Assembly: GCA_003054655.1 (NCBI GenBank) | Contig: QAYZ01000010.1 | Location: 124,001 to 188,000, forward strand | From: Spartobacteria bacterium LR76 | Lineage (GTDB): Bacteria > Verrucomicrobiota > Verrucomicrobiia > Chthoniobacterales > Terrimicrobiaceae | Length of the DNA stretch: 64,000 bases | Direction of reading: 5' to 3' | Part shown: piece after piece, positions 16,498-34,453 of the stretch | Layout of the letters: every line of letters begins with the position of its first letter | Numbering within the stretch: the stretch's first letter is position 1 | Made by a program: the position numbers and the translations under genes | The notes under the pieces: model-generated | The model's input: only the letters and a program-made list of their open reading frames with translations | The model's database searches: none | Told to the model about the DNA's origin: nothing

Positions 16498-17340
16498 ATG
16501 GGACATGGATACCACTGGGAAGCCGCCGCCGGAGCAGGCGAGGATGTCATTGCCAACTGGATACCCGCGATCGTGCACAAGGGATCAGTTATAGGACGTT
16601 CCACCTACCTTTGCGACGACGGAGAACACCCTCCGCGCGAAGAGCAGTGTTTCGGCGTCGCTTACCCGGACGGCCCCTTCCGCTTCGTCGCCCTCATTTC
16701 CACAAATTCCGTAAGCGAACCCAAATCCAACATTGTTTTCACTGCGTACCCATTCCCGCATGACGGCTGCGTGAACTCTCTCACGATCAAATCCGCAGTA
16801 GATTGGGTAAATCCCAACGAGGGTATCGTCAACGCCAGCACCGAGAGCGCTGAGTTCAGCTTTTTCGATCCCCTCTATTTCCTCAACAAATCCTCATACA
16901 AGATCGGATACAAGGCCGACTTCATTATCACGGCCCTCTCCTATGTCTTTCGCGCCTGCGAGCAGCACGAGATCAAGGTCGACGGCGGACCGCTCCTCGA
17001 AATCGAACGAGCCAACGCCCTGAAAGAAGACCCCAATGCCGACATCAACAAGATCACAACCGTTTCACTCTCTCTGGAGCACGCCTGCTGGCTAATGCCA
17101 GCAGATGCCAAGAGCGACTACTATTTTCGAGGCATCCCGGAATTCGTCGAGCGAATCGAAGCCGACGGACAAGGCTTCTACAAAGTAACAATCGTCCTTG
17201 CCCGCCCCGAAGAAACCGACTTCCGTGCAGCAGTCTACGCGTCCGAAGCAATCCTTGATGGCTACATTCCAAAAGTCGGCGAACCGGTAGAAGGAGTCCT
17301 ATGGCTCCAAGGCCGCCCATCAGAAGACGCCATCGCTTGA
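16498..17340 (+). CDS. Hypothetical cytoplasmic protein
   Basis: This 280-residue protein has no signal peptide or membrane segment. The N-terminal half opens MGHGYHWEAAAGAGEDVIANW and contains LCDDGEHPPREEQCFG and many aromatic residues. The C-terminus (about 215-280) has a compact beta-type domain ending PKVGEPVEGVLWLQGR, a pattern I associate with small plasmid or accessory proteins of unknown role. GC content is lower than in the flanking regulator. It lies 245 bp upstream of the Abi_2 gene on the same strand and could be part of the same accessory block, but no function can be assigned. Confidence 0.7.
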   Translation: MGHGYHWEAAAGAGEDVIANWIPAIVHKGSVIGRSTYLCDDGEHPPREEQCFGVAYPDGPFRFVALISTNSVSEPKSNIVFTAYPFPHDGCVNSLTIKSAVDWVNPNEGIVNASTESAEFSFFDPLYFLNKSSYKIGYKADFIITALSYVFRACEQHEIKVDGGPLLEIERANALKEDPNADINKITTVSLSLEHACWLMPADAKSDYYFRGIPEFVERIEADGQGFYKVTIVLARPEETDFRAAVYASEAILDGYIPKVGEPVEGVLWLQGRPSEDAIA

Positions 17341-17484: not shown

Positions 17485-17513
17485 TTGACATTGACCCTCC
17501 TGCCGTGCATATT
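17485..17513 (+). promoter_or_regulatory. Sigma-70-type promoter upstream of hairpin RNA/abi
   Basis: A perfect -35 box TTGACA (17485-17490) is followed by a 17-nt spacer and CATATT (17508-17513; 4 of 6 matches to TATAAT). Predicted transcription start is near 17519-17521, only about 65 bases before the abi start codon and immediately before a strong hairpin. This is the best promoter match noticed in the window. Confidence 0.55.
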
Positions 17514-17518
17514 TACCT

Positions 17519-17577
17519 CAACAACACCCGCCAAGCCTCTGCGAAAGCATGCTCAAATCGGCGGGTTTCTTCTTTTT
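17519..17577 (+). ncRNA. Candidate short structured RNA preceding abi (possible RNA antitoxin)
   Basis: A predicted transcript of about 59 nt folds with an outer stem ACCCGCC (17526-17532) pairing with GGCGGGT (17560-17566). An inner TGC-GAAA-GCA stem with a GNRA tetraloop (17540-17549) sits inside. It ends in a T-rich tract (17566-17577), so it can act as an intrinsic terminator. It lies between its own promoter and the abi start at 17586. Conserved structured RNAs directly upstream of AbiF-type genes are known (the abiF RNA motif) and RNA-antitoxin behaviour has been proposed for them. This specific RNA is inferred from sequence only. Confidence 0.55.
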
Positions 17578-17585
17578 AGGCGACC

Positions 17586-18545
17586 ATGTTTTTCCCGCAT
17601 GTGATCCACCGCATTCTACGATTTTTTGGTTACGAAAAGGCTCCAACGGCAGGGACGTTTTCAAAGACAGCCCAAACCTACACGCAGCAAGTAGCCGTCT
17701 TCCAGAACCGAGGGTTGATTGTGCTCAACCCAGCTTTCGCGGAACACTGTCTGGCTCATTGCAATTACTACCGTCTTTCGGCGTACCAGTATCCGTTTCT
17801 CGCCACCACGACCCCCAAAACATTTCGCCCCGGCGTCCATTTTGAAGAAATGTGGGAACTGTATCAATTTGATCGCGAGCTTCGCCGGTTGATTAACGAA
17901 TCCGCCAAAAGAGTGGAAATTTCGGTGCGGTCCCGCTGGGCCTACGAACTTGGCCACATCTATGGACCTCTCGCCTACGCCACCCCAGCACACTTTCGAA
18001 AGCCAAAGGAGTACAAGCGCACCCTGCAAACTATCGAAAAGGAGATCGCTCGCAGCCGGGAGGAGTTTATCGCCCATTTCAAAACGAACTACGGGATGTC
18101 GCATCCGCCAATTTGGACGGTGTGTGAAGTCATGAGCTTCGGAAACGTCAGTAAAATGTATTCTCTGCTGGCCAAAGACGCCGACCGGAAACGGATTGCC
18201 TCGGCCTATGGATTATCCCAGGAAGTGTTTGGCTCCCTCCTTCACCATCTGACATACATCAGAAATCTCTGTGCGCATCATTCGCGAGTTTGGAACCGCC
18301 GCATGGTTTTCACCATCGAATTACCGAAGAAGGGGCCACCCGATCTGGTGGCCAGCTTGAACACTTCCGCCCGCCACAAAATCTACAACACTCTGGTTCT
18401 GCTTGCCTATATGAGGAGCATCATTGAGCCAACCAGCACTTGGCCCGGTGAGGTTCGCGCCCTTGTAACAGCGCAACCAGCACACGTACCTGTCGGTATG
18501 GGGTTCCCCGCAAATTGGGCGACATTGCCGATTTGGAAGCCTTGA
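17586..18545 (+). CDS. Abi_2 (AbiD/AbiF-type) abortive infection protein
   Basis: This 319-residue cytoplasmic protein of the Abi_2 family has its conserved N-terminal block (TYTQQVAVFQNRGLIV, about 31-46), HCNYYRLSAYQYPF (58-71), FDRELRRLI (95-103) and the C-terminal RNLCAHHSRVWNR (226-238). The last contains an R-x4-H HEPN ribonuclease-type motif (R226, H231). Family members stop phage propagation by killing or halting the infected cell, and HEPN RNase activity is the proposed mechanism. The start follows a terminator-like hairpin by 8 bases, so translation probably depends on read-through or regulation by that RNA. The ribosome site is weak. It has lower GC than the window average, consistent with a transferred defence gene. 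Confidence 0.85.
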   Translation: MFFPHVIHRILRFFGYEKAPTAGTFSKTAQTYTQQVAVFQNRGLIVLNPAFAEHCLAHCNYYRLSAYQYPFLATTTPKTFRPGVHFEEMWELYQFDRELRRLINESAKRVEISVRSRWAYELGHIYGPLAYATPAHFRKPKEYKRTLQTIEKEIARSREEFIAHFKTNYGMSHPPIWTVCEVMSFGNVSKMYSLLAKDADRKRIASAYGLSQEVFGSLLHHLTYIRNLCAHHSRVWNRRMVFTIELPKKGPPDLVASLNTSARHKIYNTLVLLAYMRSIIEPTSTWPGEVRALVTAQPAHVPVGMGFPANWATLPIWKP

Positions 18546-18738: not shown

Positions 18739-19251
18739 ATGCGTGTTGCTGTGATTCCCATTCTGGTCTTGGCGGCCTTCATTTCATCCGGTCGGGCCGA
18801 CGATATTCAAAAGTTTATCGCTGGATTGGATTGGCAAAAAGATCGGCTCGAATCCGTCAGAGCCGGCGGCGACGCAGAGTTCATTGTATCCGTTGCCTTC
18901 GAAAAGAAAGATGTCTGGAGGAAGGACACTATTTCCATCGGCATCCGGGCTGTCGCCAAAAATGATCCTCGGTTTCCAATATTCGCTGGCACCGGCTGGG
19001 GAGGAACCTCTGGCAGCCGAGGAACAAGTTCGCTCATGTTACGGCAAATAAACAGAGAGGGATTTCAAGCCCACCTCGAGTTGAGCTGGACAGACAAGAT
19101 CAAGGGAAATGGAATTTTCGATCAGACCTTCCAATGCAGATGGGTCGATCACCAGTCTTGGGAAAAAGATGGATTCAAAATCGAGGTGACGATTAAGCCC
19201 AATCGCCCGCTTTCCAGCGATAGTTCCCCCAGGGAAACCAGGGGTCAGTGA
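18739..19251 (+). CDS. Secreted protein of unknown function
   Basis: This 170-residue protein has a signal peptide (MRVAVIPILVLAAFISSGRA, cleavage near GRADD). The mature part alternates charged and hydrophobic residues, has a Gly/Ser-rich turn (GTGWGGTSGSRGTSS), and contains one Cys. No domain was recognised. The 3' end runs into family C/E repeat sequence (RETRGQ stop then AGGGGTCAGTGAG), so the C-terminus may have been altered by repeat insertion. Its GC content is lower than in the neighbouring secreted proteins. Confidence 0.6.
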   Translation: MRVAVIPILVLAAFISSGRADDIQKFIAGLDWQKDRLESVRAGGDAEFIVSVAFEKKDVWRKDTISIGIRAVAKNDPRFPIFAGTGWGGTSGSRGTSSLMLRQINREGFQAHLELSWTDKIKGNGIFDQTFQCRWVDHQSWEKDGFKIEVTIKPNRPLSSDSSPRETRGQ

Positions 19252-34438: not shown

Positions 34439-34453
34439 TCGACCTAACAAAAG

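Follow-up and report, generated by a model that had tools for sequence, protein, structure and literature searches.

An AbiF-AbiFr type RNA-toxin locus in a Verrucomicrobia bacterium and solitary abiF RNAs in phages

The abiF RNA motif was reportedly first described by Weinberg et al. in 2017. Classical type III antitoxins contain repeats. In C. difficile, RCd22, an RNA with RF03085 motifs, represses and neutralises the toxin AbiFCd and co-purifies with it; RCd22 activity is lost when the stem is broken and retained when the stem is compensated (PMC12373285). Toxicity of AbiFCd requires the conserved residues R202 and H207 (PMC12373285). An antitoxin role has also been reported for the RNA of PbAbiF (Zilberzwige-Tal et al., Cell 2025, via PMC12737573), and the same review gives 8VZ6 as the AbiF-RNA complex of PbAbiF (PMC12737573), in which each monomer reportedly binds one RNA. 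The HEPN domain of CRISPR-Cas13 is reported to be related to AbiD/F (PMC12165695).

The locus described here lies in a window of 64 kb, the whole stretch of DNA analysed, and belongs to this known AbiF/abiF RNA type. The original prediction had taken the RNA, and the pair that it forms with the gene behind it, to be possibly diverged and undescribed. The pair is in fact of a described kind and still recognisable: the RNA exceeds the gathering score of the stock Rfam model, the toxin is clearly related to the AbiF of 8VZ6, and the antitoxin role of the C. difficile RNA is published (PMC12373285). The sequence-level features of AbiF-AbiFr systems that were tested are present at the locus, its promoter and terminator being predictions. 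As in AbiFCd/RCd22 of the C. difficile phi027 prophage, an Abi_2 HEPN toxin with the catalytic R and H stands behind an RF03085 RNA, in the same gene order; the RNA's own promoter, present in C. difficile, is predicted here. RCd22 contains the abiF motif twice and has a terminator distinct from it, whereas the RNA here has one motif with the T-tract fused to its stem, and the window protein is about 27-28% identical to the C. difficile phage homologues. No sign of a prophage was noticed at the locus. In PbAbiF-AbiFr (8VZ6) the toxin is homologous over residues 33-318, and the reported single RNA per monomer is consistent with the single motif here; the PbAbiF host is one of the Prevotellaceae, unlike the Verrucomicrobia of the window.

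ToxIN and other type III systems share the underlying logic, with an antitoxin RNA preceding the toxin gene and termination in between. The ToxIN toxin is ToxN and its antitoxin a repeated pseudoknot, whereas here an HEPN Abi_2 protein is preceded by a nested hairpin, and neither the tandem repeats nor the ToxN family of classical type III systems was found. Cas13 is a large protein with two HEPN motifs; the window protein has 319 aa, one motif and a fixed RNA with no guide. The window provides a well-supported Verrucomicrobia addition to the AbiF family, which is reported to be ancestral to Cas13.

Promoter, abiF RNA and toxin gene

When the complete window was searched with every Rfam model, a scan that covers the abiF search proposed as a check by the original prediction, a single match appeared: RF03085 at 17527-17566, with 43.8 bits where the gathering score is 37. 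It is the one RF03085 match above the cut-off in the entire 4.75-Mb genome, and it sits directly ahead of the genome's sole Abi_2 gene on the same strand, which bears out the claim that a conserved abiF RNA precedes an AbiF-type gene. The motif occurs once, and the RF03085 search revealed no tandem repeats genome-wide. The gene order on the plus strand is a promoter-like site, the 59-nt RNA and the Abi_2 frame (Table 1). The RNA folds with -16.9 kcal/mol, compared with a mean of -10.3 for shuffled sequences (z -2.7; 2 of 200 shuffles equally good). Its 7-bp stem, GNRA-capped hairpin and T-tract had been described correctly, coordinates included, as had the end of the RNA eight bases ahead of the start codon.

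Table 1. Coordinates of the features at the locus in the window.
Feature	Position	Strand	Basis
Predicted sigma-70-type promoter	17485..17513	+	consensus scan, 10/12 positions
abiF RNA, predicted antitoxin, 59 nt including T-tract	17519..17577	+	RF03085, fold, covariation
Outer 7-bp stem	17526-17532 and 17560-17566	+	fold: 6 G-C and 1 A-U
Inner stem AGC/GCU	17534-17536 and 17551-17553	+	fold; RNAalifold on MAFFT alignment
Apical hairpin UGC-GAAA-GCA	17540..17549	+	fold
T-rich tract, predicted intrinsic terminator or attenuator with stem	17567..17577	+	directly 3' of outer stem
AbiF/Abi_2 HEPN toxin gene, 319 aa	17586..18545	+	PF07751, PADLOC AbiD, 8vz6 phmmer
HEPN motif RNLCAH, residues 226-231, predicted RNase active site	18261..18278	+	sequence

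The claimed perfect TTGACA box with a 17-nt spacer is present in the consensus scan (-35 at 17485-17490, CATATT at 17508-17513). Taken alone the match is not remarkable, with two promoter-like sites found in the region and 0.9 expected. A promoter-like site scoring at least 9/12 at the fixed distance from the RNA occurs, however, in 16 of 27 relatives, compared with 10 of 560 control positions drawn from the same upstream regions, and this constant spacing is noteworthy. At the other end of the RNA, T makes up half or more of the 12 nt past the stem at 24 of the 25 toxin-linked loci counted, compared with 9% of background windows; L005 and L008, where the 3' arm is misplaced, were left out of this count. 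With T-rich tails and promoter positions conserved in this way, the stem of the abiF RNA probably also acts as the terminator in this clade. The hairpin is absent from the list of the terminator-like scan because its loop exceeds the size that the scan allows.

The predicted toxin matches only Abi_2 in Pfam (PF07751, 195.5 bits) and AbiD in PADLOC (239.6 bits); a search of NCBIfam gave no curated match. A phmmer search against solved structures returned one match, chain A of 8vz6 (E 3.9e-50, residues 33-318), in which RNSCCH aligns with RNLCAH, so that both the R and the H of the motif are kept. The claim of an Abi_2 protein with an R-x4-H HEPN motif is confirmed, and the protein contains one such motif.

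Conservation and covariation among relatives

An Abi_2 gene is present in 39 of 388 genomes of the phylum. We compared 30 related Abi_2 loci (L002-L031), whose proteins are 25-46% identical to the window protein except for that of L002, a near-identical relative with 99% identity and the only locus found when genome contigs were searched for related loci. Rfam's present model detects the abiF RNA at 11 of the 30, whereas a wider model, R1, built from the aligned upstream regions, detects it just upstream at 26, a figure that is a description rather than an independent test because the same sequences trained the model. L024, outside the training set, gave a weak R1 match (E 0.023); R1 matched no RNA upstream of L019 and L031, and the contig of L027 stops 187 bases upstream of its domain. 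The phylum relatives retain the same order of promoter, RNA, T-tract and gene, and the loop-side sequence GCCTCT...ATGCTCAA is strongly conserved among them.

The upstream alignment that had been proposed as a check for compensatory changes supports the fold. In an alignment made by MAFFT from sequence only, RNAalifold found standard pairing at the inner-stem pair 17534-17553, A-U in the window, for 27 of the 28 sequences: AU (12), CG (8), GC (3), UA (2) and GU (2). It found the inner stem only, because MAFFT misaligns the 3' arm where linker lengths vary. The outer stem was regained after realignment with a covariance model, and six of its seven pairs show changes on both sides among relatives. 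Over the whole structure, this model-fitted alignment, which is biased toward the given structure and includes the weak matches of L024 and of window position 34447 (E 0.19, probably chance), gives 37 both-side changes, where shuffles give 15.4, and a covariation score of 0.301, which no shuffle reaches, compared with 0.109. The RNA of L002 differs from that of the window at exactly two positions, A replacing G at 17541 and T replacing C at 17548. The two bases pair with each other in the apical hairpin, G-C here and A-U in L002.

At one related locus (L018:2181-2366), two abiF RNAs lie about 130 nt apart ahead of a single Abi_2 gene, and a TTGACT box stands upstream of each. The layout resembles that of C. 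difficile, but each motif in L018 has its own promoter-like site.

Proposed working and alternative readings

From the observed RNA family, structure and covariation, the gene family, and the order and conservation of the parts, we read the locus as a complete Verrucomicrobia toxin-antitoxin module of the AbiF-AbiFr RNA type, with a probability of about 0.93. How such a module would act, in termination and read-through, binding, neutralisation, RNase activity and antiphage effect, we infer from the studied relatives, following the published mechanism (PMC12373285; PMC12737573, reporting Cell 2025). A single promoter would drive the short abiF RNA, and the majority of transcripts would probably stop at the T-tract just past the hairpin, so that in this proposal the RNA would be made in excess; rare read-through would yield the toxin mRNA. 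AbiF would be an HEPN RNase, probably dimeric, that RNA binding keeps inactive, and the RNA would also limit the toxin mRNA through termination. Depletion of the RNA or disturbed transcription, as during phage infection, would then free the toxin, leading to RNA cleavage and growth arrest.

Some observations speak against a module of this kind. The motif is present in a single copy, compared with two in the C. difficile RNA and repeats in classical type III systems. There is no separate terminator hairpin at the locus; the abiF stem must serve. The immediate neighbours carry no recognised defence domain: the flanking genes at 16498-17340 and 18739-19251 gave no Pfam, PADLOC or NCBIfam match, and therefore no defence island is visible at the locus.

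Were the hairpin a chance structure that, with an ordinary promoter, happens to precede an Abi_2 gene, one would expect scans such as those for promoters and terminators, which by themselves lie near the shuffled expectation and are uninformative alone. The RF03085 score above gathering, the covariation and the compensatory change in L002 leave a chance origin with a negligible probability; a chance hairpin was ruled out by the Rfam match together with the covariation in relatives. It is also highly improbable that the locus is a decayed remnant with an inactive toxin. Other genomes of the phylum do have abiF RNAs ahead of Abi_2 genes that are truncated or carry internal deletions, but in the window the frame is intact over the full Abi_2 domain, RNLCAH is kept and identity to L002 is 99%.

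We regard it as very unlikely that the hairpin acts solely in cis, as an attenuator or 5' UTR element that holds down the toxin mRNA, and has no antitoxin role in trans. Such an element would fit the T-tract that ends eight bases before the start codon, and deletion of the RNA in C. difficile does lift toxin mRNA 17-fold (PMC12373285). The conservation of GCCTCT...ATGCTCAA, however, far exceeds what a terminator requires; the studied C. difficile relative acts in trans and binds the toxin (PMC12373285); and phages retain the RNA without any toxin gene to attenuate.

abiF RNAs without an intact toxin gene

An exact search of IMG/VR for the RNA core GCCTCTCAACGATGCBCAA gave at least 120 places (L054-L173); this pattern picks out a single RNA version by one search method, and the viral set holds near-duplicates and fragments. 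Among the matches listed, an Abi_2 gene lay downstream at 1 of the 68 loci with at least 1.3 kb of downstream sequence. A closing stem of at least 6 bp was found in 80 of the 120 matches listed (56 distinct RNAs); some matches that lack it may be something else. The variable inner pair, which the search pattern does not constrain on the 5' side and hardly constrains on the 3' side, is standard in 87 of the 95 distinct viral sequences among the matches listed; 2000 shuffles gave 60.9 on average and 71 at most. RF03085 scores among the matches listed reach about 62 bits (61.9), with the window copy lower.

Isolated phages that carry an abiF RNA include the cyanophages S-SZBM1, S-CREM1 and S-SRM01, Acinetobacter phage Acj61, T7-like phages of Aeromonas, Salicola phage CGphi29 and Omegavirus mycobacteriophages; in mycobacteriophage Redno2 (NC_022066) the solitary RNA lies at about 90558-90594. 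Many viral contigs are fragments; when 20 viral or phage records were searched whole, RF03085 exceeded the cut-off in 19 and Abi_2 was found in one, and the eight GenBank phage records given as whole genomes (L174-L181) contained no Abi_2. Lytic-type T4-like and T7-like phages, T4-like cyanophages included, are among the carriers of a solitary abiF RNA with no Abi_2 gene found. A tblastn search with the window Abi_2 protein matched a different set of phages, mostly of Streptococcus, Clostridioides and other Bacillota.

A T-rich tail follows 17 of 55 viral copies among the matches listed, compared with 24 of 25 toxin-linked copies; the viral RNAs thus retain the conserved core, but most have lost the attenuator part. 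The likeliest and simplest reading of the solitary phage RNAs, to which we give even odds, is that they act as decoy antitoxins that would silence host AbiF toxins, of which the window's is an example, during infection. A precedent is the pseudo-ToxI of phage PhiTE, directed against ToxIN (PMC3475682). The S-CREM1 copy is annotated without a decoy reading (PMC9964418), and the RF03085 literature examined, seen in part and with the Cell 2025 paper outside it, contains no proposal of such a role for solitary abiF RNAs. If they are decoys, phages would widely counter AbiF with RNA mimics, and this would argue strongly that AbiF does serve as a defence against phages.

Among the matches listed, 29 of 95 distinct viral RNAs have a same-strand tRNA gene no more than 150 nt away, compared with 99 of 1900 random positions, and for most of the 29 the tRNA gene is within 10 nt. 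This adjacency could alternatively reflect processing or another tRNA-linked role. In several phages the abiF RNA is wedged between tRNA genes (L175:2005-2041 and L174:2001-2048; also L109, L117 and L070).

Within the phylum, an abiF RNA scores above the cut-off at 23 places. At 10 of these no intact Abi_2 follows: the RNA stands ahead of a broken Abi_2 gene at five and ahead of other genes or nothing recognisable at the other five. The RNA is kept before a truncated or internally deleted Abi_2 in L043, L047, L051, L052 and L053, with two RNA copies each in L047 and L052, as expected if toxins decay and the antitoxin stays. In L040 (1494-1547, minus strand) the RNA lies between two phage tail-region genes, with Phage_tail_2 upstream, in a prophage-like stretch where a toxin is not seen; in L042 (2148-2248, minus strand) two tandem RNAs lie between Fic-domain and DUF3800 genes, with no Abi_2. 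Elsewhere the RNA stands directly before a 380-aa protein without a Pfam match (L045:390-446) or a Schlafen AlbA_2/HATPase_c_4 protein (L048:2070-2131), genes that are possibly new partners or replaced toxins.
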